Origin: a virus
Strand: one strand, 5' to 3'
IMG/VR virus record: IMGVR_UViG_3300044655_001596
Location: 1-64,000 of that record
Length of the DNA: 64,000 bases
Shown: positions 31,296 through 49,899 of the stretch, in pieces
Numbering within the stretch: position 1 is the stretch's first letter
Layout: each line of letters opens with the position of its first letter
The notes under the pieces: model-generated
The model's input: the letters and a program-made list of their open reading frames with translations, nothing else
Databases searched by the model: none
What the model was told of the DNA's origin: nothing
Position numbers and translations under genes: made by a program

Positions 31296-32798
31296 ATGAT
31301 ATTTGGATTTGCTATTCTCGCCACCGCATTGTTGTTAAGCATGGTGGCTGCTTATTACTCAGTAGCCGGATTGGTGGCCATATTTTCTGCGGCGACCATT
31401 CCGGTTATCATCATGGGTGGCAGCCTGGAACTGGGCAAGATTGCAGCCACAGTGTGGTTGCACAACAATTGGCGACGTGCTGGTTGGGCATTCAAGTTTT
31501 ATCTTGTGCCTGCTGTGGCGTTTCTCATGATCTTGACTAGTATGGGTATTTTTGGATATCTATCAAAAGCACACAGTGATCAAAGTTTAGTGTCGGGCGA
31601 TGTACAAAGTAAAATTGCCATCTATGACGAAAAGATCAAGACAGCAAAGGACAATATAGATGCGAACCGGAAGGCGCTTAGACAGATGGATGAAGCTGTG
31701 GACCAAGTTATGGGTCGAAGCAGTGATGAAAAAGGTGCCGACAAAGCTGTTGCAATCCGACGAGCACAGCAAAAAGAACGTGCAAGACTTCAATCCGAGA
31801 TCGCGGCCGAACAGAAAACAATTGCCGCCGTTAGCGAAGAACGTGCGCCAATCGCTGCCGAGGTTCGTAAGGTTGAAGCAGAAGTTGGACCGATAAAATA
31901 CATTGCGGCCTTGCTGTACGGAGACAACCCTGACAACAATCTGCTAGAACGTGCGGTGCGTTGGATGATCATAATGATTGTGCTGGTGTTTGATCCACTA
32001 GCACTAACCTTAATTCTAGCCGCCAACAAACAGTTTGAATGGGCACGACAAGGCACCGGAGGTTTTGTACACGACGAGCCCAAGTACGAGGCCGACGATG
32101 GTCCTTTAACTGACCAACAAGTTGATCAACTCAACAAATCTGTTGAAGTGCTTAAAACAGACCCGCACCCACCAGGCTGGATGTTTGACAAGTTTCCTTA
32201 TCTACAGGCTGGCGCGGCCATGTTCTTCAAAGACGTCAAACCCATGCCGGCTCAGTCTGACAATGACCAAGCGGCCATGAACATTGTTGCAGAACCTCCT
32301 GGTATAGAAACACGCCCATTTACTCCTGACGAAATAGCGGCGCTGGAGGCGGCGGATCACGAAGATGAAGAGGATGATGCACTCAAAGCTGCCATTAGAC
32401 AATGGAAAGCTGCCAACCCCGACGATACCTTGAAGAACCAACGTTTCAAATTGATGCGGGGAGAAATTGCTGAATTACCTTGGATGGGCTTGTTGGCTGA
32501 CAATGAATCAAGAAAAGAAATAAACAGTGGGTTTGGCACACAGTTTCCACCACATGCCGAACGTGGCGATACCTTTGTAAGAGTTGACCGCCTGCCCACA
32601 GTGGTCTATAAGTACAATGGTAAAGACTGGATAGAAGTTGACAAAAATCTAACAGACAGTTATACTTACGATATTGCTTATATTGATCACTTGATAGAGC
32701 GCATTGCATCTGGCGAATATGATGCTGAACTATTGAGTGAAATCGAGCGTGAGCAAGTGTCCCAACGTTTACAATCAAATACAAATACAAACACATGA
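31296..32798 (+). CDS. membrane protein with coiled coil (DUF4407-like topology)
   Basis: A 500-residue protein. Two adjacent membrane segments cover about residues 2-43, a third 68-90, and a fourth 223-246 (MIIMIVLVFDPLALTLILAA). Between the third and fourth lies a 100-residue charged coiled coil (KIAIYDEKIKTAKDNIDANR onward), predicted periplasmic or cytosolic depending on orientation. The last 240 residues are soluble, acidic and Pro-rich. Proteins of this design are recurrent in T4-like aquatic phages and have no known role. It overlaps clpX by 4 bp, so the two are co-translated. Confidence 0.65.
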   Translation: MIFGFAILATALLLSMVAAYYSVAGLVAIFSAATIPVIIMGGSLELGKIAATVWLHNNWRRAGWAFKFYLVPAVAFLMILTSMGIFGYLSKAHSDQSLVSGDVQSKIAIYDEKIKTAKDNIDANRKALRQMDEAVDQVMGRSSDEKGADKAVAIRRAQQKERARLQSEIAAEQKTIAAVSEERAPIAAEVRKVEAEVGPIKYIAALLYGDNPDNNLLERAVRWMIIMIVLVFDPLALTLILAANKQFEWARQGTGGFVHDEPKYEADDGPLTDQQVDQLNKSVEVLKTDPHPPGWMFDKFPYLQAGAAMFFKDVKPMPAQSDNDQAAMNIVAEPPGIETRPFTPDEIAALEAADHEDEEDDALKAAIRQWKAANPDDTLKNQRFKLMRGEIAELPWMGLLADNESRKEINSGFGTQFPPHAERGDTFVRVDRLPTVVYKYNGKDWIEVDKNLTDSYTYDIAYIDHLIERIASGEYDAELLSEIEREQVSQRLQSNTNTNT

Positions 32799-34012
32799 AA
32801 TCAAATGATCAAATCACATCCTGCAGTTTTTGTGGAAAACACAAAGATGCAGTGGCTAAACTTATTGTAGGTGAAGGTGTTGCCATATGCAATGAGTGTG
32901 TGGAACTATGTGAAACTTTGCTGAAAGATGAAAATTTTGCCGGCACAGTCAGCCCTCCTGTTGTGATGGACCCTGAACACATAAAAAATCATCTAGATCA
33001 GTATGTGATTGGCCAGGATCGTGCCAAACAGGTACTGAGCGTGGCAGTGGTAAATCATTACAAACGCATTAGTAATCCGGGAACTGATACTGAGATTGAA
33101 AAGTGTAACATTCTCATGCTTGGCCCAACGGGGTCGGGCAAAACATTGTTGGCACGTAGTGTAGCACGTTACTTGGATGTACCGTTCGTGATTGCCGATG
33201 CCACAAGTCTTACTGAAGCAGGTTATGTAGGCGACGACGTTGAGAGCTTGATCTCTAGATTGTTTGCCGCATCGGGCGGTGACATCGCCAAAACACAGCG
33301 CGGCATTGTGTTCATTGACGAAATTGACAAAATCAGTCGCCGCAGTGAAAGTGCTTCAATCACACGAGATGTGTCAGGAGAAGGTGTACAACAGGCCTTG
33401 CTTAAACTGGTAGAAGGCACCAAGTGCAGAGTCACTCCCACAGGAAATCGCAAGCATCCTTCAGGTGACATGATTGAGATTGATACCACTAACATCTTGT
33501 TTATTGCTGGTGGTGCGTTCGTGGGTCTTGATGCAGTGGTAAAAAATCGTGTGCGTGGAACTTCGATTGGTTTCAGTGCAAAAGTAAAAGACGACACAGA
33601 AACACACCTAGACCAAGTCACACCAGAAGACTTGATCAAGTTTGGTATGATTCCAGAGTTTGTGGGTCGTTTCCCTAGCTGGGTAGCACTCAACGAACTC
33701 AACAAAGAAGATTTGATCCGTATCTTGCTGGATGTCAAACACAGTTACATTGCACAATACTCTTGGTTGTTTGAACAAGACAAAGTAGAACTAGAATTCA
33801 GTGCAGAAGCCTTGGAAATGATTGCAGATCGCACTATTCTAAACAAAACTGGTGCTAGGGGTTTGCACTCAGAGCTAGAACGTGTGTTACTCCCCCATAT
33901 GTTTTATTTGGCCCGTTATCGTAGGGAAGGAGTAAACCGCGTGTTTATTGATGCAGATCAGGTAAATACCCCTACAGAACTAAAGGAAGCAAATGGAAAA
34001 GCTAAGGGGTAG
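32795..34012 (+). CDS. clpX: ClpX, ATP-dependent unfoldase of ClpXP
   Basis: A 405-residue complete ClpX (E. coli 424). The zinc-binding domain has Cys10, Cys13, Cys32 and Cys35. The AAA+ module has Walker A GPTGSGKT (110-117), pore loop GYVG (143-146), Walker B IVFIDE (171-176), an RKH loop (219-221), and GARGL sensor-2. The ClpP-docking IGF tripeptide is present at 258-260, so it should be able to engage ClpP. Two clpP-like genes lie 13-15 kb downstream and a clpS-like gene 0.8 kb downstream. It recognises and unfolds tagged proteins for degradation. It overlaps rpsU by 20 bp. Confidence 0.97.
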
Positions 34013-34217
34013 ATCAGTACTGGTCACAGATGGTAACGTAGACAAAGCTCTACGTAAATTCAAAAAGAAAATTCAAACATCGGGCATCTTAGATGATGTT
34101 CGAGCCAAAGAGTTTTACGAAAAACCCACTACAGAACGCAAACGCAAAAAGTCAGCGGCGCAAAATCGTTGGCGCAAAAAACTAGCCGAACAGGCTTTGC
34201 CCAAAAAACTTTATTGA
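33993..34217 (+). CDS. rpsU: ribosomal protein bS21
   Basis: A 74-residue basic protein of the S21 family. [18 protein letters not shown] matches the N-terminal helix, [15 protein letters not shown] (here [17 protein letters not shown]) the core motif, and the protein ends in LPKKLY, like the RTRLY end of bacterial S21. bS21 sits on the 30S platform next to the anti-Shine-Dalgarno end of 16S rRNA and affects initiation. Phage S21 is known from Pelagibacter and huge phages and may bias ribosomes toward phage messages. It overlaps clpX by 20 bp. Confidence 0.95.
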
Positions 34218-34232
34218 TAATGGGTTTTCGTG

Positions 34233-34243
34233 TATAATAAATA
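34233..34243 (+). promoter_or_regulatory. possible promoter region of hsp20
   Basis: TATAAT (34233-34238) with only a weak -35, overlapping a late-type AATAAATA (34236-34243). A GTAG-rich imperfect hairpin (about 34248-34272) follows in the leader, and AAAGGAG precedes the ATG at 34305. Confidence 0.45.
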
Positions 34244-34304
34244 ACTGTGTAGTGCCCATAGTGGGGCTACATCTAAGTCATCTTGCTTATAAAGGAGAAA
34301 ACAA

Positions 34305-34763
34305 ATGACAAAAACTCTCACCCTTCGTAGTTTCGACATTCCCGCACTCACCAAATTTGGTATCGGTTTCGATAACATGTTTGATGAACTCATGCGTGTG
34401 AGTACTCAACAATCCTCAACCAACTACCCGCCCTACGATATTGTACAAATCAATGACGACGAGTACATGATCAGTGTGGCTGTGGCCGGTTTTGGGCATG
34501 ACAACCTTACTGTGACCAAGGACAAAAACTTCTTGATTATTGAAGGCAAGCACAGTCGTGAAACTGTGGAGAATGACGATGCCACTGCAAAATATTTGCA
34601 CAAAGGTATTAGTGAAAGAAGTTTCCGCAGAGAATTCCAACTTGCGGATCATGTGGAAATTAGTAATGCTCACCTTGAACTAGGTATTCTCAGCGTTCAC
34701 TTGCGACGTGAAGTGCCCGAAGAAGCCAAGCCAAAGACTATTGCTATCACATACACTTCCTAA
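34305..34763 (+). CDS. small heat-shock protein, Hsp20/IbpA family
   Basis: A 152-residue holdase chaperone. The alpha-crystallin domain spans about residues 42-140, with VAVAGFGHDNLTVTKD as its hallmark strand pair, FRREFQLADHVE, and the GILSVHL (G-x-L) motif; an IAITYTS C-terminus includes the I-x-I tail motif. It keeps unfolding proteins soluble and could feed substrates to a phage ClpXP. Hsp20 genes are common in T4-like cyanophages. It has an AAAGGAG site and an independent leader. Confidence 0.93.
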   Translation: MTKTLTLRSFDIPALTKFGIGFDNMFDELMRVSTQQSSTNYPPYDIVQINDDEYMISVAVAGFGHDNLTVTKDKNFLIIEGKHSRETVENDDATAKYLHKGISERSFRREFQLADHVEISNAHLELGILSVHLRREVPEEAKPKTIAITYTS

Positions 34764-34771
34764 TATAATAG

Positions 34772-34804
34772 TGTAAATACAGTAGGGACGCGGTGTCCCT
34801 ACTG
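34772..34804 (+). promoter_or_regulatory. late-type promoter box with strong leader hairpin (clpS)
   Basis: TGTAAATA (34772-34779) is followed directly by a perfect 10-bp hairpin CAGTAGGGAC-GCGGT-GTCCCTACTG (34780-34804). There is no T run, so the hairpin is more likely a leader stabiliser than a terminator. AAGGA lies upstream of the clpS ATG at 34821. Confidence 0.5.
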
Positions 34805-34820
34805 CTAACAAGGAAACAAA

Positions 34821-35132
34821 ATGGCACAAAGCGAAACTAAAACTAGAATCAAACCCTTAGAATCTGTGCAAGAGCCGCCCTTGTACCGTGTGGTCTATCT
34901 CAATGACAATCAAACCACGTATGAATTTGTGGTAGAGACTTTGATTGAATACTTTGACTACACCGCAGAAACCGCAGAACAAATCACAATAGACATCCAT
35001 GATGCGGGATCAGCTGTGGTAGCAGTGCTGCCATACGAGATTGCTGAACAAAAAGGTGTGGAAGTGACCATGCTGGCACGAGCACAAAGTTATCCACTGC
35101 AAATCAAACTAGAACCAGAACCTGTTGGTTAA
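34821..35132 (+). CDS. clpS: ClpS-like adaptor protein
   Basis: A 103-residue protein with the ClpS fold: YRVVYLNDNQTTYEFVVETL matches VVLVNDDYTPMEFV, ITIDIHDAGSAVVAVL matches the H66 helix/strand, and AEQKGVEVTMLARAQSYPL matches the C-terminal half. ClpS delivers N-degron proteins to ClpAP in bacteria. Key pocket positions differ: E. coli Asp36 is Asn30 here and Met40 is Tyr34, while the amine-binding Asn34-Asp35 (Asn28-Asp29) and His66 (His60) are kept. No clpA is in the window, so it may act on host ClpA or change its substrate choice. It converges on a minus-strand gene with a 4-bp overlap. Confidence 0.85.
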   Translation: MAQSETKTRIKPLESVQEPPLYRVVYLNDNQTTYEFVVETLIEYFDYTAETAEQITIDIHDAGSAVVAVLPYEIAEQKGVEVTMLARAQSYPLQIKLEPEPVG

Positions 35133-35917
35133 AAATCAATCACAATGCGTTGTGGATAGTACACATGCCGTGAATATTTGGTATGTTGTCGTCCACGACA
35201 GTTGTTGACAAATCGAATACCCGACCGTGTTTGGTCTACTGATCCATGGTAGTGTCCAAAACACCAAGTATGAATCTTGTTTTCGGTGTCGGCTGCCATG
35301 GCCTGCATCATGAGTCTGTTGCCCATGGTATTGAATTTCATGCTACCGTCTAGATCGATGTCATGAGCAATCAGGGCTGGATCGGGCACAGTATGAGTGA
35401 CCATCACAATCTTTCGAACATCTGCATGCCGTTGCAGTTTTTGCACACTGTTAATCATGTAACTAGCATCGTTGTTACTGAGTCTTGCTATGTTTTTGGT
35501 GGCTGCGGCGCTCATGTTGTATTTTTCTTGCACCCATTGATCCACTTGATCAGGATCAATTCCTAGATCAAAATCAAATCCAAACCAGCCATTGGTACCT
35601 AGAATAGCAACTCCATCAACAATTACCACGTTGTCTTGTAAGTACACTATATTGGGTATGCGTTTGATACGCCGCACAAGATCGCTGTAACTGGAACCAA
35701 GATCTTCAAGATAATTATAATGCTCGTCATTCCCGTCAATGTAAAACACAGCCTGATAGCATCGTCCAAGATGTCTAAGGGTACGTGTGACAGTGTCGCG
35801 ATCCCGGGCAATATCCCCAGCAACTACGCACACTGGGCTGGTGGCCTGATGATGCCAATCCAGTTGATCCCAGGTTTCTACGTGTAGGTCTGAAATTAAA
35901 TCAAATGCAAAACTCAT
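35129..35917 (-). CDS. calcineurin-like metallophosphoesterase
   Basis: A 262-residue enzyme with the metallophosphoesterase blocks in order: LISDLHVE (D-x-H), VVAGDIA (GD), YIDGNDEHY (GN-x-E), MVTHTVPD (H) and CFGHYHGS (GH-x-H). It would hydrolyse phosphoesters of nucleotides, nucleic-acid ends or proteins. A second, distinct member lies at 57443-58309. It is the only minus-strand gene between clpS and the following small gene, with a TTTAAATA box near its start. Confidence 0.85.
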   Translation of the reverse strand: MSFAFDLISDLHVETWDQLDWHHQATSPVCVVAGDIARDRDTVTRTLRHLGRCYQAVFYIDGNDEHYNYLEDLGSSYSDLVRRIKRIPNIVYLQDNVVIVDGVAILGTNGWFGFDFDLGIDPDQVDQWVQEKYNMSAAATKNIARLSNNDASYMINSVQKLQRHADVRKIVMVTHTVPDPALIAHDIDLDGSMKFNTMGNRLMMQAMAADTENKIHTWCFGHYHGSVDQTRSGIRFVNNCRGRQHTKYSRHVYYPQRIVIDF

Positions 35918-35923
35918 GATACA

Positions 35924-35931
35924 TATTTAAA
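35924..35931 (-). promoter_or_regulatory. late-type promoter box, minus strand
   Basis: TTTAAATA ending 6 nt before the minus-strand ATG at 35917, a leaderless arrangement. Confidence 0.4.
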
Positions 35932-35941
35932 AGGAAATAAC

Positions 35942-36298
35942 ATGAACATAATATTTGGCGACGCCATCAAAGAGATTCCGGACAGTTTTACAATATTAGA
36001 ACTAGACACATTTCGCACACCCAAGGACGAGTTACGAACAGCATATTGTGTGGTAGAAACCATACCCCTGTCAGAATTTGCCACGCTGGAAGACTATAAA
36101 AAAATACATGCTGATCTTGTAAAGTTCTATCGAGAACGGCAATGGAACTATTGCGAACATGCAATAGAAGGACTCATGGGACGTTGGAATGGTGAGCTTG
36201 ACACATTCTACACCAATCTATTGAGTCGTGTGATGCACTTGAAAGAAAATCCGCCGTCAGACGACTGGGATGGATTCACTGTTAGGCAAAGTAAGTAA
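35942..36298 (+). CDS. phage protein of unknown function
   Basis: A 118-residue acidic protein (ILELDTFRTPKDELRTAYCV near residue 18, HADLVKFYRERQWNYCEHAI near 60). AAGGA precedes the ATG. Its 3' end overlaps the convergent glycosyltransferase-like gene by 42 bp. No domain is recognised. Confidence 0.6.
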   Translation: MNIIFGDAIKEIPDSFTILELDTFRTPKDELRTAYCVVETIPLSEFATLEDYKKIHADLVKFYRERQWNYCEHAIEGLMGRWNGELDTFYTNLLSRVMHLKENPPSDDWDGFTVRQSK

Positions 36299-37510
36299 AC
36301 TTTGCATACGTTTGTTGCGAGCGTCTATAGCACCATCAAAATTCTGTTTAAATTCATTGATCAACTGATTGTGCCATTCCGTTGAAAAAAATCTCTGTTG
36401 GTTATAGTTAGCAATCAATCTCAATGAATCATAAACTTGTTGTTTAGCATCATGTGGTAATGTTGCAATACGCTTCATCTCTGACAGAATAGCCTGCAAT
36501 CTTTCCAATGGGTCAGCAATGGTGTCATACGTTTCGTCGATTATGTTATGAAAAGTTTTGAACCCATAACCGCGAAGATATTCCAGACTACCTTGCGTGG
36601 CCACCAAAATAAACGGATGCCCGCAAGCAATTGGTCTAAGTGTTTTTTCTGTAAGATGTAATCTATCATCATCAAACAAAGTTTCTAGTACAACTTCTAG
36701 ATTGGTAGTTTGATAGTCGTGTGTAAAGTAATCAGCACTAGATAGACTGTCACTAGTGTTGTGGAAAAAATATTGCTCAAGGTCTTGACGTTGGATTTGA
36801 AATTTTTTATTTTGAAATTGATGTTGACGATAATCAGTTGAATCTTGACTGTTAAATCCCATCTTGCAATGCGAATACAGGTCATGTTCGACCACAAGTT
36901 CGGCAAATTTTAATCTATATTCTCTAGTACCTGACCAAGCACGATTGTATATCAAAAAGTCTTTTTGTGGCGTTCGTTTTGATAGCAATACATCATGTTG
37001 TGCATATCTAAACCAATCTCTAGCAATCACACCGTGACACCACCAGTATACTCCTATAAAATCTATATCTTGATATTTTTGTAAATTAGATGATCGTTGT
37101 TCAGAATGTATTAACAAAACTGGAATCTGATACAGTAAAAACCCAAAGATAATTTTGAAATTGAGATGATGTATTATTTTTCCCACTAGTGATTTGACCA
37201 TGCCAGTAATAAATTCATCTTGGTCTTGAATGATCTGAAAATTAGGATGCACTGATTCAAACACATCAGGTGACGAATAAAGATCAAAATTCAACGGTTC
37301 TTGATCATGCATAAACAAGATATTTTGACGGGCATATTGATATCTTGTTTCCCATGACTGGTCCGAACCATCAATAAGACCATTGGTTAAAAACACCGTA
37401 AGGTCGGTTATTTTTCTTGAGCCATGTGGGAAAAAGCGATAAATTATTAGATCGCGATGGTTGCAAACATCGTGCAAAAAGTTGTATAATCTATCTAAAG
37501 GAACACTCAT
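36257..37510 (-). CDS. glycosyltransferase-like protein
   Basis: A 417-residue protein with start at 37510 (MSVPLDRLYNFL). The segment LTEKTLRPIACGHPFILVAT near the middle of the C-terminal half and GSLEYLRGYGFKTFHNIIDE just after it are typical of glycosyltransferases of exostosin-like type in aquatic phages. HDQEPLNFDLY near residue 85 is another common block. A longer in-frame version would run across the real start of the divergent dehydrogenase, so it is rejected. It starts head to head with that gene (CATATG with no gap), suggesting shared control. Sugar donor and acceptor are unknown. Confidence 0.7.
   Translation of the reverse strand: MSVPLDRLYNFLHDVCNHRDLIIYRFFPHGSRKITDLTVFLTNGLIDGSDQSWETRYQYARQNILFMHDQEPLNFDLYSSPDVFESVHPNFQIIQDQDEFITGMVKSLVGKIIHHLNFKIIFGFLLYQIPVLLIHSEQRSSNLQKYQDIDFIGVYWWCHGVIARDWFRYAQHDVLLSKRTPQKDFLIYNRAWSGTREYRLKFAELVVEHDLYSHCKMGFNSQDSTDYRQHQFQNKKFQIQRQDLEQYFFHNTSDSLSSADYFTHDYQTTNLEVVLETLFDDDRLHLTEKTLRPIACGHPFILVATQGSLEYLRGYGFKTFHNIIDETYDTIADPLERLQAILSEMKRIATLPHDAKQQVYDSLRLIANYNQQRFFSTEWHNQLINEFKQNFDGAIDARNKRMQSLLTLPNSESIPVV
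37462..37491 (+). promoter_or_regulatory. sigma70 promoter of the dehydrogenase operon
   Basis: TTGCAA, 18-bp spacer, TATAAT (37486-37491), then AAAGGA before the ATG at 37511. It lies inside the 5' coding part of the divergent minus-strand gene. Confidence 0.6.
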
Positions 37511-38749
37511 ATGAAGAAAATTGGATTTATTGGTATCGGCAAACTGGGACTCGACTGCGCGGAAGTTATGGCAGAGAAGCACGAAGTCAGAGGTTACGAT
37601 ATTTACCCGCGTACCAGCGACTCGGTAAAAGTTTGCGATATTGATGAATTGGTCAATGAAAGCGAATGGATTTTTATTGCAGTACCCACTCCACATGCTG
37701 AAGGCTACGATGGCTCGGTGCCCAGCTCACACATGGAACCACGTGACTTTGGACATGACGCTGTGATCAGTGCAATCAACAATGTCAACAAGTACGCAAA
37801 GTCACCCAAGAAAGTTGTGTTGATCTCCACAGTATTACCCGGCACCACACGCCGCAAGTTTTATCCACTGCTAGACAAGAGTCATCAGTTCTTGTACAAC
37901 CCTTATCTAATTGCCATGGGCAGTGTGAAGTGGGACATGGTCAACCCTGAGATGGTCATGATTGGTACAGAGGATGGCAACCCCAATGCACTAGCAGGCG
38001 AGTTGATCGATTTGTACAAGACCATGATGGTAAACGATCCTCGCTATGAGATTGGCACCTGGGACGAATGTGAAGCAATGAAGATTTTCTACAACACATT
38101 CATTAGCGCAAAAGTTGGTCTTGTGAACATGATTCAAGACTTTGCACTGCGCATTGGCAACATCAATGTTGACGTGGTTACAGATGCCTTGGCACGCTCG
38201 ACCATGCGTATCATGGGCCCCAAGTACATGACCGCAGGTATGGGCGATGCAGGCGCTTGCCATCCACGTGACAACATTGCCTTGCGTTGGTTGGCCAAAG
38301 AATATGACATTGGCTACGACTTGTTTGACACAGTGATGCATGCTCGAGAAATTCAAGCCAAGAACCTTGCCATGTTTCTAGTTGAACAGGCTAAACAACA
38401 TGGCATGAGCATTGTGATTCATGGCAAAGCCTACAAGCCCGATGTTGAATATTGTATTGGATCATACTCTACTCTAGTAGGACACTATGTTAAACAAGCA
38501 GGCTTTGGCGTAAGATACCTTGATCCCCTGGCAGATGATCCTGCAGAAGTTATTACAGAACTGGCAGGTCCTGCGGTGATATTGTGGGCACACAATCGCA
38601 AGATCACTTATGAGTACACCGGTGATCAACCTGACACGTTGCCGTATTGCCCAATCCCACATGGTAGTGTAGTGGTTGATCCATGGCGTAAACTTCCACA
38701 GATTGAGAATTTGACTGTGGTACATTATGGCAACACACGAAATTCTTAA
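37511..38749 (+). CDS. ugd: UDP-glucose/GDP-mannose 6-dehydrogenase family
   Basis: A 412-residue NAD-dependent sugar-nucleotide dehydrogenase that oxidises a nucleotide sugar to the uronic acid. GFIGIGKLG (6-14) is the Rossmann nucleotide-binding loop, AVPTPHAEG and STVLPGTTRRK are family motifs, and the active-site cysteine is Cys250 in DAGACHPRDNIAL. KPDVEYCIGSYSTLVG is the C-terminal UDP-binding block. It likely makes sugar precursors for surface glycan or phage DNA modification, together with the glycosyltransferase that shares the CATATG start region. It overlaps the next gene by 23 bp. Confidence 0.88.
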   Translation: MKKIGFIGIGKLGLDCAEVMAEKHEVRGYDIYPRTSDSVKVCDIDELVNESEWIFIAVPTPHAEGYDGSVPSSHMEPRDFGHDAVISAINNVNKYAKSPKKVVLISTVLPGTTRRKFYPLLDKSHQFLYNPYLIAMGSVKWDMVNPEMVMIGTEDGNPNALAGELIDLYKTMMVNDPRYEIGTWDECEAMKIFYNTFISAKVGLVNMIQDFALRIGNINVDVVTDALARSTMRIMGPKYMTAGMGDAGACHPRDNIALRWLAKEYDIGYDLFDTVMHAREIQAKNLAMFLVEQAKQHGMSIVIHGKAYKPDVEYCIGSYSTLVGHYVKQAGFGVRYLDPLADDPAEVITELAGPAVILWAHNRKITYEYTGDQPDTLPYCPIPHGSVVVDPWRKLPQIENLTVVHYGNTRNS

Positions 38750-42612: not shown

Positions 42613-42639
42613 GTCTGTGTTTAATGATTTGCGCACAGG

Positions 42640-42647: not shown

Positions 42648-42652
42648 TCTAT

Positions 42653-42817
42653 ATGAGTTGGTTCAAACGAATTCCACACCGTTATCCCCCAGCCCCGCCT
42701 GCCTCTGCTCCGCATAGAACTAGTCCTGCTACTGATCGGGCACTAGAAGAGTCCAAGTCGCTGGGTCCAAAAACCCGTAAGAAAACTGTCAAAAAGCCCC
42801 CACTAAATAAGGCATGA
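42653..42817 (+). CDS. small Pro-rich basic phage protein
   Basis: A 54-residue protein (MSWFKRIPHRYPPAPPASA at the start, KKPPLNKA at the end). The ATG at 42653 is preferred over an upstream GTG/ATG-less extension because it directly follows a TAAATA box. The SPATDRALEESKSLGP segment gives it a recognisable, recurrent phage look. It overlaps the next gene by ATGA. Function is unknown. Confidence 0.6.
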   Translation: MSWFKRIPHRYPPAPPASAPHRTSPATDRALEESKSLGPKTRKKTVKKPPLNKA

Positions 42818-43488: not shown

Positions 43489-44166
43489 CAGTCTAAACAG
43501 GCTGAGCCACATCCAGCCTATGTCAAACTCCCACCACTTTTTAGAGAGGCGGGCACTCGCTGGTTCCAGGTGGTGGTTGTTGTGCAACTCTTCGCCACCA
43601 ATAACAATACCCCAAGGGCTAATATTGCGACTATGATCTTTAGTTTTGCCATTACGATATCCTATCCAATGTCCTACACCGTTGATGACTCCAGCTGCCC
43701 AGAAAGGAATCCACAGCATCTGAATGCCCCAAATCAACACTCCCCACCAACCAAATATCAAGACATCTAGCATAAAGAGAATGCCAATGCCAAGTCTAGA
43801 GTGAGGCTGGTATACGTGAAGCTCCATCCAATCAGCAGGAGTACCAACACCATATGTATTAACCATATCCGTATCTTTTGATGCTTCATGATATAACCCT
43901 GCTCCTTTAAAAAACACTCTTTTGATTCCATACACATGTGGTGAGTGTGGATCTCCATCCGCATCGCTAAATCTATGATGTTTGCGATGTATGGCCACCC
44001 ACTGTTTGGTTACCATGCCTGTGGTCAACCATAACCAGGCTCGCATAAAGTGTTCAAGTATGGGATGAAATTCTATGCCTCGATGTGCTTGGCCACGATG
44101 CAAATACAACGTGACACAAACGATAGTAATGTGTGTCATTGCCAGTGTTGCGATTAGTTCTGTCAT
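43459..44166 (-). CDS. fatty acid desaturase
   Basis: A 235-residue membrane-bound acyl-CoA/acyl-lipid desaturase with three His boxes: YLHRGQAHR (HRxxAH type), HRKHHRFSDADGDPH and EELHNNHH. It would introduce double bonds to adjust membrane fluidity during infection, as in cyanophages. Hydrophobic segments flank the first two boxes (TLAMTHITIVCVTL; LGIGILFMLDVLIFGWWGVL). A minus-strand ATTAAATA box ends 4 nt before the ATG. Confidence 0.95.
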   Translation of the reverse strand: MTELIATLAMTHITIVCVTLYLHRGQAHRGIEFHPILEHFMRAWLWLTTGMVTKQWVAIHRKHHRFSDADGDPHSPHVYGIKRVFFKGAGLYHEASKDTDMVNTYGVGTPADWMELHVYQPHSRLGIGILFMLDVLIFGWWGVLIWGIQMLWIPFWAAGVINGVGHWIGYRNGKTKDHSRNISPWGIVIGGEELHNNHHLEPASARLSKKWWEFDIGWMWLSLFRLLRLARLRVH

Positions 44167-44170
44167 AGTT

Positions 44171-44178
44171 TATTTAAT
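44171..44178 (-). promoter_or_regulatory. late-type promoter box of the desaturase, leaderless
   Basis: Minus-strand ATTAAATA ending 4 nt before the ATG at 44166; it overlaps the T-run of the terminator of the upstream minus-strand gene. Confidence 0.4.
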
Positions 44179-44199
44179 AAAAAAGCCCCTTTCGGGGCT
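44174..44199 (-). terminator. intrinsic terminator, minus strand
   Basis: Six-bp stem AGCCCC/GGGGCT with GAAA loop followed by a T run, downstream of the gene that ends at 44203. Confidence 0.85.
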
Positions 44200-44202
44200 G
44201 AT

Positions 44203-44454
44203 TTATTTTGCAGGAGTTTTTCGTGTTCGTGTTGGTCGAGCCGTTGTGGGTTTGGCAGCTGGGGTTGTTTTGGGTTTAGCAGGTGCTCTTGGTTTTTTAA
44301 TAGGCACAGGTGCTACCACTGAAGCTGGTTCCGATGCTGTTTCGATTGGTTTGGGAAACGGCCAATCGGTACCTGGCGTTTCAATTTTGTAAGGTGCCTT
44401 GGTCTCCACTGCTGTTGGTTTGCCAAAAAAGAATTCTTTAATTTTTTGAAACAT
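44203..44454 (-). CDS. Pro/Lys-rich basic small protein
   Basis: An 83-residue protein with a hydrophobic N-terminal start (MFQKIKEFFFGKP) and a low-complexity, Pro/Ala/Lys/Thr-rich C-terminus (PRAPAKPKTTPAAKP). Such basic disordered tails often bind nucleic acid. It has its own terminator and a minus-strand GTTAAATA box, with AGGAGAAC before the ATG. Function is unknown. Confidence 0.6.
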   Translation of the reverse strand: MFQKIKEFFFGKPTAVETKAPYKIETPGTDWPFPKPIETASEPASVVAPVPIKKPRAPAKPKTTPAAKPTTARPTRTRKTPAK

Positions 44455-44471
44455 AATGTTCTCCTATGTTG

Positions 44472-44479
44472 TATTTAAC
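44472..44479 (-). promoter_or_regulatory. late-type promoter box, minus strand
   Basis: GTTAAATA, 17 nt before the start of the Pro/Lys-rich protein. Confidence 0.4.
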
Positions 44480-44543
44480 AATTTAGTGACCATTCACTAG
44501 GAAAAACCACCGTTTTATATTGCATTGCAACAAGATTGTCATA

Positions 44544-44582
44544 TATAATAGTACATAGGACGCTGGATAGGCCGGGTCCTAT
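44544..44582 (+). promoter_or_regulatory. promoter -10 and leader hairpin of the phasin-like gene
   Basis: TATAAT (44544-44549) with no clear -35, followed by a 7-bp leader hairpin ATAGGAC/GTCCTAT (44555-44582). AGGAG lies before the ATG at 44610. Confidence 0.45.
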
Positions 44583-44609
44583 AGTAAACTCGCTTAATAG
44601 GAGAAACAC

Positions 44610-44888
44610 ATGTTTACAGCAGACGCATTCATCGACACCGTTCAAACCGGTAAAAAAACTTGGGTCAACACTTTTGTGACCAATGAGGCCATGAAAGACG
44701 CAATGATCAAATTCGTTGACAACCAAGCCGACTACACCAAAAAAGCCATCAAGGCTACCACAGACGCCGCAACCACTGTTGCCAGCGAAACTGTCAAAGC
44801 TGTGCAAGAAGCTACCAAATTTGACTATGTGAAATTTGGCGAAGGAATCATGAAGGCTTACACCGCCCAGTCATCTAAATCAAAGTAA
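44610..44888 (+). CDS. phasin-like amphipathic helical protein
   Basis: A 92-residue, almost fully alpha-helical protein, rich in Ala, Lys and Thr (MFTADAFIDTVQTGKKTWV, YTKKAIKATTDAATTVA, FDYVKFGEGIMKAY). The pattern resembles phasins, which coat polyhydroxyalkanoate granules in betaproteobacteria. A phage phasin could manipulate host carbon stores. The family call is from composition and helix pattern, not from a strict motif. It has its own promoter, leader hairpin and terminator. Confidence 0.6.
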   Translation: MFTADAFIDTVQTGKKTWVNTFVTNEAMKDAMIKFVDNQADYTKKAIKATTDAATTVASETVKAVQEATKFDYVKFGEGIMKAYTAQSSKSK

Positions 44889-44910
44889 TACTCTAGTACT
44901 ACTTTTTGAC

Positions 44911-44936
44911 AGCCCCAGATTTTGGGGCTTTCTCTT
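44911..44936 (+). terminator. intrinsic terminator of the phasin-like gene
   Basis: AGCCCCA-GATTT-TGGGGCT followed by TTCTCTT, 22 nt after the stop. Confidence 0.85.
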
Positions 44937-44963
44937 GACCAATAATTCGTCATCTGCTATAAT
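44935..44963 (+). promoter_or_regulatory. strong early-type sigma70 promoter, short-leader
   Basis: TTGACC, 17-bp spacer, TATAAT (44958-44963), ending 9 nt before the ATG at 44973. Confidence 0.8.
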
Positions 44964-44972
44964 TACTGCATT

Positions 44973-45125
44973 ATGAAGCCAATCCATTTTGTTTTGCAGG
45001 CTCCCCGAGAGCGTCGACATCGTGCCCTGTTTGATCAGGACTTGCCGTTCCGCGGTCGTGTGGAGCGGCCAAAGACCGAGTATCGGCGCAGACCCAAACA
45101 CAAGAATCGCGAGCAACAAGAATGA
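44973..45125 (+). CDS. tiny Arg-rich protein
   Basis: A 50-residue, very basic protein (PRERRHRALFDQDLPFRGR, RRRPKHKNREQQE). It has no ribosome site and starts 9 nt after a strong -10 box. The stop overlaps the next ATG (ATGA). It may be an early nucleic-acid or host-factor binding protein; the function is unknown. Confidence 0.55.
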   Translation: MKPIHFVLQAPRERRHRALFDQDLPFRGRVERPKTEYRRRPKHKNREQQE

Positions 45126-45367
45126 AACTTATTGCACCTCTATTGCTGTCGTTGTTGGTGGGTTGCGCTTCGCAATCTTACACACCGCCACCTTCTGTTG
45201 CGGCCATGCCCAATGACTGTGCCAACCGGCAGGCAATCATCAGTTGGTTAGAAACACAAGCCCGAGTTCCTCGTCAAGCATTTGAAAGTGAGAAGCACTA
45301 TGAACAAACACGCTCGCAGATTCGCCACCGTTTGTGGCATGTGCGTTATAACTGTCAGCCTGTTTAG
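45122..45367 (+). CDS. small lipoprotein
   Basis: An 81-residue lipoprotein with signal peptide and lipobox LLVGC (Cys15), mature part starting CASQSYTPPPS. The mature protein is short and helical (DCANRQAIISWLETQA, HYEQTRSQIRHRLWHVR). Spanin or outer-membrane roles are possible. It is the first of four consecutive exported proteins up to 47048, and is coupled to the gene before by ATGA. Confidence 0.8.
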   Translation: MKLIAPLLLSLLVGCASQSYTPPPSVAAMPNDCANRQAIISWLETQARVPRQAFESEKHYEQTRSQIRHRLWHVRYNCQPV

Positions 45368-45623
45368 TGGATGTGCAACTCATCCAGATGTCACACGCAT
45401 ACCCATGGCCACAATAGATCTCAATCACTTTCAAGTTGATTGTAGGATCAAAGATCAACAGGTGGCCATGTTGCAAGCCATGCGCCAAACACCCAACGAA
45501 CAATTTGGCAGTCGCATGCGAGCCATGAATCCTTTTGTTTGGACCAGTGATCATGATGTGGCATTCAACAATCCCAACAAGTACATCAACTACCATCTCA
45601 ACAATTTGAGGTATTGCCCATGA
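45300..45623 (+). CDS. lipoprotein
   Basis: A 107-residue protein with a twin-hydrophobic signal (ARRFATVCGMCVITVSLFSGC) and lipobox LFSGC at about residues 24-28. The mature part is soluble with two further Cys (VDCRIKDQQ, RYCP). The upstream gene overlaps it by 68 bp, and the stop overlaps the next gene by 4 bp. Outer-membrane or periplasmic anchoring is predicted; function unknown. Confidence 0.7.
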   Translation: MNKHARRFATVCGMCVITVSLFSGCATHPDVTRIPMATIDLNHFQVDCRIKDQQVAMLQAMRQTPNEQFGSRMRAMNPFVWTSDHDVAFNNPNKYINYHLNNLRYCP

Positions 45624-46180
45624 AACGACTGCTAATTGCCGCATTGATACCTGCCAGTGTACTGGCGTCCGAGTGTGTGTTGCAGGATCGAACCGTGACT
45701 GCCAGTGCAGTTCGCATTGAAGAACGATCTGGTCTTCGCGAAGATGTTGTTCCTGCACCCGACGGAGGCCGTAGATGCATGGTCAATTTTAAAGCACGAG
45801 TTGGTGCCACTTGGTATTGGGCACAAGGCCATTATGATTGGCCCGGCGATCGCCCACGTGGTGAAGCCTGTGCTGTGGCTGTGTCGCGAGCCGAAGATTC
45901 AGTTCGAACACAAGTGGCGCCCAGTCATGTGCGTAGTGAAAAGGTAATGGTGTGTTCGGACCAACGCGATCTGGAACTGCTTCGCAGTACCAATCCCGGC
46001 AGCGTAGGACGACTGCACCAATTTCGTCCGCATCCAGACTTTCCGCGAGAGTTTTGGCACAATGGTGCTCGCTGTCGCTGGTTTTTGGATAGCACTTTTC
46101 GACATCAAGATGTCTACACCTACCAAGGCGTAATTTGCCAAATCCAAAAGGATCAATGGGTAGTGGTTGACAAGTTTTGA
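45620..46180 (+). CDS. secreted protein with conserved cysteines
   Basis: A 186-residue protein with a Sec signal (MKRLLIAALIPASVLASE). The mature part has six Cys, paired around CVLQDRTVTASAV, RRCMVNFKARVG, GEACAVAVSRAE, KVMVCSDQRD, ARCRWFLDSTF and QGVICQIQKD, suggesting a disulphide-bonded periplasmic fold. It overlaps the upstream lipoprotein by 4 bp. No family is recognised. It ends before the promoter of the next lipoprotein. Confidence 0.7.
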   Translation: MKRLLIAALIPASVLASECVLQDRTVTASAVRIEERSGLREDVVPAPDGGRRCMVNFKARVGATWYWAQGHYDWPGDRPRGEACAVAVSRAEDSVRTQVAPSHVRSEKVMVCSDQRDLELLRSTNPGSVGRLHQFRPHPDFPREFWHNGARCRWFLDSTFRHQDVYTYQGVICQIQKDQWVVVDKF

Positions 46181-46195
46181 TCATTTGTGTATAAT
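46167..46195 (+). promoter_or_regulatory. sigma70 promoter
   Basis: TTGACA, 17-bp spacer, TATAAT (46190-46195), overlapping the end of the upstream gene; GAAAGG precedes the ATG at 46230. Confidence 0.8.
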
Positions 46196-46229
46196 AGAAG
46201 TATCGTGTAACTAACCTGAAAGGTTTTGT

Positions 46230-47048
46230 ATGTTAATCAAACGTTTATCTGTCCTAGCAGTGGCCACAAGCCTTGTGGCATGTGCAAGCACAACGGCACA
46301 AAAAGCCGAAACTGTGGCTCCCGCTCCGGTGACCCGTGTGGTTGAAATAGCACCGCAAGTGGCGCCTGCACCACACCCTTATGCCTTGCCTGAACGGCAA
46401 GTTCGCACAGTGGTACGAGCTCCTGCTTGGTTCGTGAACTTGCCCGAAGATACCGCAGACATGACCTTTGCTGTGGGCACTGCAACATCAACGGATGAGC
46501 AAATGGCCTACGACAAAGCACGTATGGCTGCAGAGCGCAAACTGGTTGAGCAGATGTATGCTAGAATTACCACACAGACCAACAGCTTCAAAGCTGATCG
46601 TGGCAGTGCAACAATTGAAAACTACCAGCAAGTCACACGCAAAAATGCACGTGGTGAGCTGAGTGGTGCTCAACGAGTAGACAGTCAAGTCACACATGAT
46701 GGGCAATACTACAAGGTCTATGTACTATTGCGATTGCCTACAGGCGCCAACAACACAATGCAAACACGTCGTGATCAACAACGTCTGCAACGTGAAGCAG
46801 AAATCCGCGGTCGCGCCGCAGAACGCAACATGGACGCAACCGAAGCTCGTGATGCGCAGATTGAGCAAGAAAATACTCGCTCACTTGAGCGTAGTCTTGA
46901 ACCCCAGAGCAAAGTTACCCCTGTAACTGTACCCACAACGTCTGGAGAACTTAAACTGCTGGATGTTGACAACGCTGAATATCGGCAAAAAAGGGCAGAA
47001 GCACTACAAAAACCTGGTGCTGTAGTAGGACAAACAGTAGTTAGATAA
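46230..47048 (+). CDS. LPP20-like lipoprotein
   Basis: A 272-residue lipoprotein: signal peptide with lipobox LVACAST (Cys18), a Pro-rich tether, and then APAWFVNLPEDTADMTFAVG near residue 70 followed by a long helix (EQMAYDKARMAAERKLVEQM), the signature of LPP20-type lipoproteins. YYKVYVLLRLPTG near 158 is the second conserved strand. The last 90 residues are helical and charged. It has its own promoter and ends at a hairpin terminator. Role unknown, probably at the outer membrane. Confidence 0.75.
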   Translation: MLIKRLSVLAVATSLVACASTTAQKAETVAPAPVTRVVEIAPQVAPAPHPYALPERQVRTVVRAPAWFVNLPEDTADMTFAVGTATSTDEQMAYDKARMAAERKLVEQMYARITTQTNSFKADRGSATIENYQQVTRKNARGELSGAQRVDSQVTHDGQYYKVYVLLRLPTGANNTMQTRRDQQRLQREAEIRGRAAERNMDATEARDAQIEQENTRSLERSLEPQSKVTPVTVPTTSGELKLLDVDNAEYRQKRAEALQKPGAVVGQTVVR

Positions 47049-47062
47049 GCCCAAAAACGGCG

Positions 47063-47070
47063 TATAAATA
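47063..47070 (+). promoter_or_regulatory. exact T4 late promoter consensus
   Basis: TATAAATA, identical to the T4 late -10 consensus, upstream of the first clpP-like gene (47108). Confidence 0.6.
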
Positions 47071-47097
47071 AAAGCGGTGCTAAAAACACCGCTTTCT
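47071..47097 (+). terminator. hairpin, terminator or leader structure
   Basis: Nine-bp stem AAAGCGGTG/CACCGCTTT with a 7-nt loop, followed by CTCC rather than a long T run. It ends the LPP20-like gene, or lies at the 5' end of a late clpP transcript. Confidence 0.6.
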
Positions 47098-47107
47098 CCA
47101 CTTTAAA

Positions 47108-47683
47108 ATGACCATTGAAACCACACAAACAATTGAGCAGACTCACACCCAAGCCTTGGCCGACAACGGTATGTATGTTTTCATGGGCGAGGTTGACAAT
47201 GACAACATCAAACCTATAATTGAATGGATCCTGCACGAGAACTTTGTGACCAAGAGAAAACGCAAAGAACTCTTGCTGATGATTTGCTCAGAAGGTGGGG
47301 ACATGAGTTCGGCATTTGCCTTGATTGATGTCATGCGCAGTTCTGTCATTCCAATCAAAGTTGTGGGACTGGGGCAGATTGCCAGTGCTGGATTATTGAT
47401 CTTTTTAGCAGGAACACCGGGTCGTAGAACGCTCACTCCCAATACATCAATCATGAGTCACCAGTATGCCTGGGGCAGTGATGGCAAACATCACGAGCTG
47501 TTGGCCACAATTAAAGAGTTTGAGCTAACACAAACCCGTATGGTACAGCACTACATAGATTGTACAGGGTTAGATGAAGCCCAAATCAAGCAACACCTGT
47601 TGCCACCGCATGATGTTTATTTAGGTGCAGACGATGCCTTGCGTTTGGGCATTTGCGACCATATCAGCCAACTGTCTCGTTAA
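47108..47683 (+). CDS. ClpP-like serine protease subunit, divergent paralogue
   Basis: A 191-residue peptidase S14 protein. The catalytic triad can be placed: Ser93 in GLGQIASAGLLIF, His118 in SIMSHQY, and Asp169 in PHDVYLGADDAL. It is divergent from the canonical copy at 49306 (for example CSEGGDMSSAFAL in place of [13 protein letters not shown]). Two ClpP isoforms often co-assemble in mixed rings, so this may pair with the other phage subunit or the host ClpP. It converges on a minus-strand gene with a 4-bp overlap. Confidence 0.85.
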   Translation: MTIETTQTIEQTHTQALADNGMYVFMGEVDNDNIKPIIEWILHENFVTKRKRKELLLMICSEGGDMSSAFALIDVMRSSVIPIKVVGLGQIASAGLLIFLAGTPGRRTLTPNTSIMSHQYAWGSDGKHHELLATIKEFELTQTRMVQHYIDCTGLDEAQIKQHLLPPHDVYLGADDALRLGICDHISQLSR

Positions 47684-49254
47684 CCTTTTTTCCGACGTCC
47701 CAACGTCTTTTCGTCAAAGTCGGGCTGTGTGGCTTTCCTTGATGCTTTGGCGCCTGGGCCAGTCAATCTAGGCTCCTTGCCCACCTGATTCAAATCATCA
47801 GTATCGAGTTTTGCTGGCTCTGCTTGACCTGCTGGCATGTTGCCGGGCTCGGTGATATCTTCCCCGCCGGGTGAAAACTCCACACTCATTTTACCCTTGA
47901 TTTCACCTGCTGAACCCTTGGTCTTGAGCTTGACCTGACCGCTGATCTTGGCTGGCCAAAATGCTTCGGTTACCAGTCGGTCGCCTTTGACTTTGCTGTA
48001 TAGTTGCACAAAGTTGTAGCCTAAACTTTCAATCAAGGCCGCTCGCAATTCTGGCACAGCACGATCAGTGTTTACAGCTCGCATCACATCGCTAATGGTA
48101 GCATACCATGCTTTGCCGCCATCAGTTGCAGTGCCGTCTTTGACTTTGTCACTGAGTTGCTGGTTGAACTGTCTCATCACACTAGCAGGTAAAGATTGGC
48201 CAGTTTTAAAACTTCTTTCGTATTCGGCGACCGAGTCTGGTGTAAACGGAATCAAAGGATGATAGGCCTTGGGAACCTTGTTGGAATTCAACATGTATAG
48301 ATAGTTCATCATGGCAAATGGCTGAGTAAACTGTCCCAATGTGTCATCTTGTGCAATATCCAAGAATTCGGCAGCATCGGGGTATTTTTCTCTGACTTCG
48401 TTGGGTAACTTCATGCTGCCTAAACTGGGCGGAGCACCTGTTCCCGCGGCCTTACTGGAAATCTTAATCGCATGACCGTTTTCGTCATTAACCACACTAA
48501 AACTGTCGGCCAAGGGATTGTTGCTGGCCTTGGGAAAGTACATGATCAAGTCATCAAAATTAGCGCCCACAAATTCTTCAAACTCTTGCTTACTACCACG
48601 AATAAACGGAACAGTACCGCGAACCAGTCCTAACGCACCAAGATACTCGCTGGCGTACAACTCAATTGCTTTGATTTCATCCTTTGATAGATTGGACGGA
48701 AACATCGGAATCTGTCCGTCATTGACCTGTCGAGCCATGTATATCACAGCATCACCAACCTTGCCTAGCTTTTGTAAATCTGGATTGTTGGCCAAGCGAT
48801 CATACATTTCTGCTGCTGGGAAACCACCAGCCTGTAGCACAGTGTTCATGCTGTTGCCAAAGTCTTGAATTTCAATGTCTGTTGTGTTGAACACCTGACT
48901 GGGTTTGATGCTGATGTTTTCTGCTTCTTTGCTGCCAAACTCCACGGTTTTCAACAGCTCGGTATTTTTGACTGTGCCACCATCCTTGGTGTTCATGGTT
49001 ATGGTTTTTTTTGGGCCAGTTGCAATCCAAGCTGCTACACTATTGACTTCTGAAGGATCCACAATGACTTCGCCGCCACTGACCAAGGTAAATGGTGAAC
49101 CAGTTTGAACCTTGTGCAAAAATAGATCACCTCTAGAAAAAGGCTTCTTTGTAGCAGGATTGATCACTGAACTCATCTTGTTTGGAGGGATTTCACTGGC
49201 AGCCAAGTTGGCTTCAGTCAGTACATTGTCGAGTAAATTGAGTAGGTCACGCAT
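47680..49254 (-). CDS. large phage protein, probable virion component
   Basis: A 524-residue soluble protein. The N-terminus ([20 protein letters not shown]) resembles the start of internal virion proteins in this phage. Residues 60-150 are beta-rich ([32 protein letters not shown]), and the last 90 residues are a Lys/Gly/Pro-rich disordered tail ([18 protein letters not shown]) that could bind DNA. No enzyme motif is visible. A role as a head or DNA-packaging related protein is speculative. Confidence 0.55.
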
Positions 49255-49282
49255 TGCTATTTTCCAAGAATAATGTTATACT
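49254..49282 (+). promoter_or_regulatory. sigma70-type promoter of clpP
   Basis: TTGCTA, 17-bp spacer, TATACT (49277-49282), followed by AAGGAG before the ATG at 49306. It is divergent from the minus-strand gene start at 49254. Confidence 0.6.
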
Positions 49283-49305
49283 TATGCTTTGAACAAGGAG
49301 ACCCC

Positions 49306-49899
49306 ATGCCAAATCTAGTACCAATTGTGCTTGAACAAACCGCCAAAGGCGAACGCAGTTATGATATCTACAGCCGATTGCTCAAAGACCGTGTGATCAT
49401 GCTGGACACAGAAGTATCGGAACACACAGCCAGTTTGCTGGTAGCACAGATGCTGTTTTTGGAGAGTGAAAACCCTGACAAAGATATCTCCCTATATATC
49501 AATTCGCCAGGCGGATCGGTCACAGCAGGCATGGCCATCTATGACACCATGCAGTTTATCAAGTGTGATGTGCAGACCATTGTGATGGGTCAGGCCTGTA
49601 GTATGGGAAGTCTGCTAAGTACAGCAGGAGCCGCAGGCAAGCGCACGATCCTGCCCAATGCCCGACACATGATTCACCAACCATCAGGTGGTGCTCGTGG
49701 GCAAGCTACAGACATCCAAATCCAAGCACGAGAAATCCAAAAGATGAAAGAGTATCTCACCACAATCTATGTCAAGCACAACTCAGCAGGTAAAACCTAT
49801 GATGAATTTGCTCGTGACATGGAACGTGATTTCTTTATGAGTGCTCAAGAAGCCTTGGACTATGGACTAGTAGATAAAATTATCAACAAACGAGAATGA
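49306..49899 (+). CDS. clpP: ClpP, canonical ATP-dependent protease subunit
   Basis: A 197-residue complete ClpP (E. coli precursor is 207). The triad is Ser99 in GQACSMGS, His124 in HMIHQPSGG, and Asp175 in MERDFFMSA. The [11 protein letters not shown] loop, the ITRILDQP-like handle region ([13 protein letters not shown]) and the C-terminal GLVDKII are conserved. Unlike most bacterial copies there is no long propeptide. It can be expected to form tetradecamers with or without the divergent subunit and to dock the phage ClpX. It is coupled to the radical SAM gene by ATGA. Confidence 0.96.

Follow-up and report, generated by a model that had tools for sequence, protein, structure and literature searches.

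A conserved Clp protease gene set with two distinct ClpP-family peptidases in a lineage of large phages

The clpX-clpS cluster and the two ClpP genes

This work concerns a set of Clp protease genes in a 64,000-nucleotide stretch of viral DNA (the window), which makes up bases 1 to 64000 of the 77,318-base IMG/VR virus record IMGVR_UViG_3300044655_001596. On its plus strand lie clpX (32795..34012), a gene for a bS21 homologue (33993..34217; PF01165, 2.9e-20), a gene for the small heat-shock holdase Hsp20 (34305..34763; PF00011, 3e-16, phrog_432), and clpS (34821..35132; PF02617, 1e-24), followed further downstream by two genes of the ClpP family (PF00574), which we call clpP2 (47108..47683) and clpP1 (49306..49899). 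A sequence-only reading of the window had described a phage-encoded ClpXP protease with two ClpP subunits, a ClpS-like adaptor, and an Hsp20. Profile matches confirmed clpX, hsp20, clpS, and both clpP-like genes at positions that agree with that reading exactly or to a few codons and bore out its description of the second ClpP as divergent (94 bits against PF00574, compared with 273 for the canonical copy).

Relatives were collected by scanning IMG/VR with ClpS (589 matches), ClpX (548), and ClpP2 (400), the best 80 of each being kept; for counts of gene order, eligible loci are those with sufficient flanking DNA. The 405-residue ClpX has the Pfam domains zf-C4_ClpX, AAA_2, and D2-small and passes two NCBIfam ClpX equivalog cutoffs (534.4 versus 359 and 513.7 versus 370.75 bits). 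Across 87 distinct sequences, the window's included, C10/C13/C32/C35, the GYVG at 143-146, and G259-F260 are identical in 87/87, and position 258 of the IGF loop is I in 82 and M in 5, such that the C4 zinc domain, Walker motifs, GYVG pore loop, and IGF loop are all present and invariant or nearly so. The motifs that had been read from the window alone are therefore kept, with the amendment that a single C4 zinc domain takes the place of the "zinc fingers." Phage ClpX is a predicted ATP-dependent unfoldase that would dock on ClpP.

Hsp20 has a clear alpha-crystallin domain (PF00011, 59.8 versus 20.8 bits), and ClpS scores 86.5 versus 23 bits against PF02617. ClpS residues N28, D29, H60, E73, and K78 are invariant in 79/79 sequences and align without gaps to N34, D35, H66, E79, and K84 of Escherichia coli ClpS, which we take to be the N-degron and ClpA-contact residues. 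Position 34, presumably the gatekeeper residue, is M in 52/79, Y in 22/79 (as in the window), and L in 2/79; the idea of a lineage-wide altered ClpS specificity via the gatekeeper was rejected on account of this mixture.

The order of these genes is conserved. ClpX lies upstream of ClpS in 74/74 eligible ClpS loci (of 80), Hsp20 in 76/76, and bS21 in 63/74; seen from ClpX, both ClpS and Hsp20 lie downstream in 53/53 eligible loci (of 80). ClpX, Hsp20, and ClpS, in this order, form a conserved kit across every sampled relative with enough flank. Median dN/dS values, each gene being compared with the window copy over pairs with usable dS only, are low for ClpX (0.068; 13 of 86 pairs usable), ClpS (0.131; 21 of 78), Hsp20 (0.15; 59 of 81), ClpP2 (0.118; 10 of 64), and ClpP1 (0.145; 16 of 56), and we conclude from these ratios that the Clp kit genes are maintained by purifying selection. 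Since gene order is conserved and dN/dS is low, the Clp gene set is not a chance assembly.

The two ClpP-family proteins differ sharply in the features with which a ClpP receives its ATPase. In the following, positions are given in E. coli mature numbering; we take Y60, Y62, and F82 to be the E. coli docking elements Y74, Y76, and F96 less the 14-residue propeptide, and positions 114 and 189 to belong to the same docking patch. ClpP1 is a canonical ClpP peptidase that passes the NCBIfam PRK00277 subfamily model (317 versus 249 bits) and falls a little below the TIGR00493 equivalog cutoff (298.5 versus 308.6 bits). Its Ser-His-Asp triad is invariant in 57/57 sequences, and the N-terminal loop, Y62, and F82 are kept in 55/55 of those compared, with position 60 mostly Ser (44/55). 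ClpP2 (PF00574, 93.9 versus 20.2 bits) likewise has an intact triad, invariant in 65/65 and in all 64 of the docking comparison, in agreement with the earlier claim that both copies keep Ser/His/Asp. Positions 4 to 8, however, are gapped in 64/64, leaving ClpP2 without the N-terminal loop, and its docking patch is polar, with M at 62 (60/64), S at 82 (61/64), T at 114 (64/64), and mostly S at 189 (54/64). To judge by these residues, ClpP2 is a ClpP-family peptidase that is not to be classed as a ClpX/ClpA-docking ClpP. Because it is without the N-terminal loop and aromatic docking patch, it is unlikely to be a usual second ClpX-fed subunit, and the two ClpP subunits of the sequence-only reading are not equivalent.

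An AlphaFold model of ClpP2 (pLDDT 83.8) has the ClpP fold, with Z scores of 24.0 to 24.6 among the matches listed; its matches by VIA-align are tied ClpPs, which do not separate the subtypes. A BFVD search with the model returned viral ClpP-like proteins, and a scan of genome contigs for a bacterial origin of ClpP2, made with two patterns and therefore weak, returned only five contigs, all from metagenome-assembled genomes.

ClpP1 itself occurs in two subtypes, one (A) resembling the reference from the Acinetobacter chromosome and the other (B) distinguished by 10 residues inserted into the handle region and by HRV replacing HQP. By a motif rule, 57 ClpP1 rows (55 from phages, one each from phage Callisto and Acinetobacter) divide into 38 A and 19 B, where the ClpP of Callisto is scored A via its HRA motif despite carrying the insertion. 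The subtype alternates repeatedly between related phages, for example between L210 and L211 on the one hand and the window copy at 49306 on the other.

Clp genes in the larger relatives

ClpS is an adaptor of ClpA and not of ClpX. Its assignment to ClpXP in the sequence-only reading therefore fails, in line with the treatment of ClpS in the sections available of two phage genome papers (Attai 2018; Iyer 2021). Because ClpS serves ClpA, which is absent from the window's record, that record alone would have to borrow ClpA from the host. The large relatives, all 23 records of at least 200 kb from the tables of the three scans (some of them near-copies and some fragments), supply a predicted ClpA of their own. 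A full-length ClpA-like gene is present in 20/23 of them, a 21st is split over two frames (G019), and neither G004 nor G010 yielded one; the Clp_N domain of ClpA is present in 21/23. Two ClpA-like proteins scanned against Pfam contain Clp_N together with both AAA+ domains and the lid domains, and for the one that was scored against several families, ClpA was the best (793 versus 649 for ClpB). Among 17 unbroken copies that were fetched, from which G019 is excluded, all have the KYRG and GYVG pore motifs and all have the IGF docking loop, 16 as recognized by script and that of L252 by reading.

ClpX over its cutoff is present in 22/23 large relatives and ClpS in 22/23, both missing from G012, and exactly two ClpP-family genes are present in 22/23, with none in G004. 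In most of these genomes, clpX-clpS and the ClpA-like gene are separated by tens of kilobases, and a DnaJ homologue adjoins clpA in 5/5 genomes read, with Pfam domains confirmed in three of those five. Because the large relatives carry the ClpA-like gene and DnaJ, the lineage owns parts of both ClpXP and ClpAPS as well as two chaperones. The earlier suggestion of a phage-owned degradation system is thus well supported by sequence and becomes broader than first proposed, with the redirection of host protein turnover as a role that it might have.

Two observations concern clpA itself. The frame-split ClpA-like gene (G019:10981-13070) contains a TGA, and G020, which looks to be its near-copy, has the whole gene, which points to either decay or an assembly error. 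At the 3' end of clpA, an open reading frame of 213 to 265 residues by mechanical starts (L275:9407-10048 in record G001, where it overlaps clpA by 4 nucleotides [nt]) is common to 5/5 genomes read; two of its products scanned gave no Pfam match and one scanned gave no PHROG match. It is possibly a ClpA adaptor.

Proposed working and its alternatives

The sequences show that the genes are there, that their order and motifs are maintained under purifying selection, and how complete the kit is across the large relatives; we infer how its parts may assemble, with which partners they may dock, which substrates they may take, and what role they may play in infection. We think it rather probable that this phage lineage carries an AAA+ proteolysis kit of its own, in which ClpX and the ClpA-like protein would feed ClpP1, with ClpP2 standing separate. 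Phage ClpX and ClpA-like rings would dock via their IGF loops on the ClpP1 chamber and feed unfolded proteins into it, ClpS would deliver N-degron proteins to phage ClpA, and Hsp20, together with the DnaJ encoded beside ClpA, would hold or prepare clients. Such a kit might give a large phage the means for protein quality control and selective turnover inside the infected cell, independently of the host Clp pool. ClpP2 would provide a second catalytic chamber, most likely paired with itself and not accepting ClpX or ClpA directly.

Several points weigh against this proposal. The window phage's ClpA has to be supplied from relatives, because its own 77-kb record, a fragment, yielded no ClpA beyond cross-matches at clpX. 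The ClpA-like proteins score below the NCBIfam TIGR02639 cutoff (782 to 818 versus 993 bits), ClpS below the NCBIfam ClpS equivalog cutoffs (best 76.1 versus 149 bits), and Hsp20 below the IbpA cutoff (124.8 versus 212). The locus counts are not independent, because near-copies are frequent (80 distinct ClpX-ClpS pairs remain from 141 loci in which the two genes are complete), and, since the loci were sampled via these same genes, the counts describe this lineage rather than phages generally. In the deposited record of the Pseudomonas phage PA5oct, which has a similar cluster, a mass-spectrometry tag is attached to several neighboring proteins and not to ClpX, the heat-shock protein, or ClpS. 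Finally, the phage proteins could in fact act with the Clp components of the host.

This last point can be extended to a scheme in which the phage parts plug into host machines, with ClpS steering host ClpAP, ClpX feeding host ClpP, and ClpP2 joining or blocking host rings. Partial kits such as that of cyanophage BUCT-ZZ01 are in its favor, the IGF loop should fit canonical ClpP, and host ClpAP is proposed as the partner of phage ClpS in a jumbo-phage survey (Iyer 2021, PMC7824862). We nevertheless regard the scheme as quite improbable, as an own ClpA-like protein and a canonical ClpP1 in the large relatives would be needless if host machines were used, and gene order and residues have been conserved together.

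A different question is whether the two phage ClpPs join in a single hybrid double ring, like ClpP1 and ClpP2 of Mycobacterium, with ClpX and ClpA docking on the ClpP1 face only and ClpP2 serving as the second catalytic ring. That two ClpPs occur in nearly all large relatives, usually encoded close to each other, fits this arrangement, as do the position of ClpP1 downstream of ClpP2 in 60/65 eligible loci (the misses being L232, L233, L236, L238, and L241), the presence of both ClpP types in phage Phosso, and the restriction of docking features to one ClpP, which resembles the asymmetric Mycobacterium tuberculosis case as far as the available text describes it (PMC4416901). Some ClpP2 positions, including 151 in the handle, also differ between partners of ClpP1-A and ClpP1-B in a comparison uncorrected for kinship. 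An obligate hybrid paired through the handles would, on the other hand, be expected to show matching handle changes. Mapped onto the ClpP2 tree (53 rows), the ClpP1 A/B label requires 7 changes, every one of them imposed by branches with good support; with labels shuffled the average is 15.7, and the label is thus still clustered on that tree. In six contrasts between A and B sisters, the ClpP1 proteins have an identity of 0.63 to 0.73, yet 33 to 39 of the 40 ClpP2 residues at 117-156 (the handle) are identical, and no position in this segment changed in at least five of the six. Moreover, clpP1 and clpP2 lie far apart in G021 to G023, and in BUCT-ZZ01 a ClpP2-type protein (49% identical) is the only one to match PF00574, and neither ClpX nor ClpA was matched. 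Because the ClpP1 subtype switched while the ClpP2 handle hardly changed, these data argue against an obligate ClpP1:ClpP2 hybrid, and we consider the shared double ring unlikely, although recombination of clpP2 itself could be an alternative source of the pattern.

The independence of ClpP2, as envisaged in the proposal of a phage-owned kit, is supported by BUCT-ZZ01, since its ClpP2-type protein occurs there without a second ClpP or a ClpX/ClpA match. A more specific and bolder version holds that ClpP2 is a virus-lineage ClpP without ClpX/ClpA docking that forms a separate, self-paired chamber and is fed by a phage factor, degrades peptides or unfolded proteins alone, or enters host ClpP rings and uncouples host ClpX and ClpA. 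In this form, we think the idea rather unlikely to be correct; if it were, one phage chamber would degrade for the phage itself while the other would subvert or bypass that of the host.

Two further explanations were rejected. One assigns to ClpP1 or ClpP2 the part of the prohead (head maturation) protease, a role suggested by the PHROG label "head maturation protease" for the ClpP family and by the same name on the deposited Paride ClpP. Both window ClpPs, however, miss the NCBIfam NF045542 cutoff for ClpP-like head maturation proteases (107.4 bits for ClpP1 and 53.1 for ClpP2, versus 120), and 17/25 records have, apart from the ClpPs, an S77 prohead protease of the T4 type, including 14/15 above 280 kb (G009 is the miss among these, and the remaining misses are shorter records, possibly fragments). 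We give this role very little credence in view of the separate S77 protease. The other is bacterial contamination or a chimeric contig, which does occur in the phage collection used: contigs of "Acinetobacter phage MD-2021a" (L005, L006) carry ordinary bacterial chromosome genes, and hits to them were discarded as chromosome pieces, their genes serving solely for comparison with bacteria. Numerous unannotated "Listeria/Staphylococcus/Enterococcus phage" matches, unchecked, resemble this case and were excluded from use. The same gene order recurs, however, across dozens of distinct virus contigs, with their 80 distinct pairs, and in cultured phages, and the window contains phage genes for primase, a DnaB-type helicase, ribonucleotide reductase, and ligase; the nearest named match of the helicase is in the PA5oct group of Pseudomonas jumbo phages (47.6%). 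Contamination is excluded by this synteny and has next to no probability.

A phage tmRNA as a tagger for ClpXP was also considered. No Rfam tmRNA match was over the cutoff in 28 records (0/28), where the tmRNA-annotated phage Mosig also scored below it, and an Rfam scan of the window gave no match. ARAGORN predicts a tmRNA with an odd 29-residue tag in record G016 (L283:1559-1964), which scores 32.5 in Rfam versus a cutoff of 47.

Known systems, significance, and neighboring genes

By sequence, the nearest named kin of the window's gene set are in PA5oct, Callisto, and Paride, in Sinorhizobium phage Phosso, and in Agrobacterium phage Atu_ph07. The Wroclawvirus phages PA5oct, Callisto, and Paride (Arenbergviridae) share the order clpX-S21-hsp20-clpS, with two small genes between S21 and hsp20 (the cluster being identified by annotation or profile in PA5oct and Paride), and have a DNA ligase nearby, as in the window; Callisto and Paride have a dnaJ-clpA pair and a ClpP, as in the lineage studied here. 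They differ in having one PF00574 protein (seen in Callisto, with the B-like insertion) and no ClpP2, in having an FtsH of their own, which in PA5oct adjoins a protein annotated as FtsH interacting, and, in Callisto, in holding clpX to clpA within 26 kb. Atu_ph07 and Phosso have ClpX, ClpA-like, and ClpP homologues, and Phosso also has ClpS; in Phosso, by contrast, the Clp genes are scattered with no clpX-hsp20-clpS cluster. Phosso has a ClpP2, whereas Atu_ph07 has one PF00574 protein only.

Beyond phages, the set resembles the E. coli-type ClpXP and ClpAPS systems in domains, Walker, pore, and IGF motifs, and ClpS N-degron residues and differs from them in that the ClpA-like protein, ClpS, and Hsp20 fall below the NCBIfam equivalog cutoffs and in the extra ClpP2 without docking features. 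Mycobacterium ClpP1P2 likewise has two ClpPs of which one only has ATPase-docking features, according to the text available (PMC4416901); in the phages, the switching of ClpP1 subtypes beside a near-constant ClpP2 handle argues against such obligate pairing.

Phage Clp kits are of a kind already known, because the Clp sets of two phages have been published: the accessible sections report ClpX, ClpA, ClpB, ClpS, and proteolytic subunits in Atu_ph07 (Attai 2018; PMC6102473) and six Clp open reading frames, Hsp20, and DnaJ in Sinorhizobium phage AP-J-162 (PMC11242549). A survey of jumbo phages lists ClpP, ClpS, ClpA, and ClpX (PMC7824862). Chen et al. (2022) tallied the neighbors of bS21, up to ten genes away, in phages already published and count among them Hsp20 (n = 127) as well as two families of Clp protease (n = 50 and n = 47), whereas in their own five clades, according to the same excerpts, bS21 lies in the capsid region and the predicted hosts are Bacteroidetes (PMC9723584). 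Among the matches listed, in those parts of the literature that lie outside subscription papers, preprints, and supplements, we found descriptions of genomes and none that put a Clp protease encoded by a phage to an experimental test; searches with exact phrases such as "phage-encoded ClpP" returned no paper. PMC13037316, with a single VFDB mention of clpP, and PMC9035409 contributed nothing of use. As far as the literature covered goes, three things look new: that the set, along with a ClpA-like gene, is conserved across the lineage, that ClpP2 is distinct, and that the kit of Paride is mislabeled.

The Paride case deserves attention, as this relative of PA5oct is reported to lyse dormant Pseudomonas aeruginosa, and the main text of that report, as available to the search and apart from its supplements, contains no "Clp," "chaperone," or "FtsH" (PMC10761892). 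In the genome of Paride, ClpX is over its NCBIfam cutoff, and ClpA-, ClpS-, ClpP-, Hsp20-, DnaJ-, and FtsH-like proteins lie below theirs. Within OR805295.1 36000-72000 (L273), ClpX, FtsH, and DnaJ are deposited as "hypothetical protein," ClpP as "head maturation protease," and ClpA and ClpS as "ATP-dependent protease." Paride thus offers a cultured test bed for a kit that, in the lineage described here, is conserved and selected and not a stray gene. What whole AAA+ proteases do in giant phages, whether quality control, the killing of host regulators, or coping with starved hosts, could be addressed there. Should ClpP2 function independently of ClpX and ClpA, it would be unusual for a ClpP.

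Upstream of clpX on the same strand, a gene for a 500-residue membrane and coiled-coil protein (31296..32798) is coupled to it by a 4-nt overlap of its stop with the clpX start, an overlap of this length being present in 82/147 loci; the gene lies upstream of ClpS in 72/72 eligible loci. The N-terminal half of the protein matches 13 further phage records, many of them large phages; the whole protein had no sequence match in PDB at an E value of 0.1, and its model is too weak to interpret (pTM 0.34). It is possibly a membrane partner of ClpX. A second membrane protein (28551 or 28581 to 29276, plus strand) had been read as YccA-like and able to restrain FtsH. It belongs to the BI-1/Bax1-I family (PF01027, 7.8e-53), its likeness to YccA is loose (28.9 versus a YccA equivalog cutoff of 353), and the idea that it restrains FtsH is weak, with the BI-1 gene present in 21/69 eligible relative loci and FtsH in 0/23 large relatives. 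The BI-1 protein probably stands outside the conserved kit.

Some other genes were noticed in passing. An Fe/Mn superoxide dismutase-like gene, below NCBIfam cutoffs, lies at 72998-73558 of the record (L007:14999-15559), and a similar gene adjoins clpS in Callisto and Paride. A Hint/intein-like segment was seen by eye in a predicted 361-residue protein on the minus strand of the record (76049-77134; L007:18050-19135). Between 40167 and 44166, the window encodes a UvdE-type UV endonuclease, a PstS-like protein (by eye), a glutamine-amidotransferase-like protein, and a DesA-like fatty acid desaturase that scores just below its cutoff.

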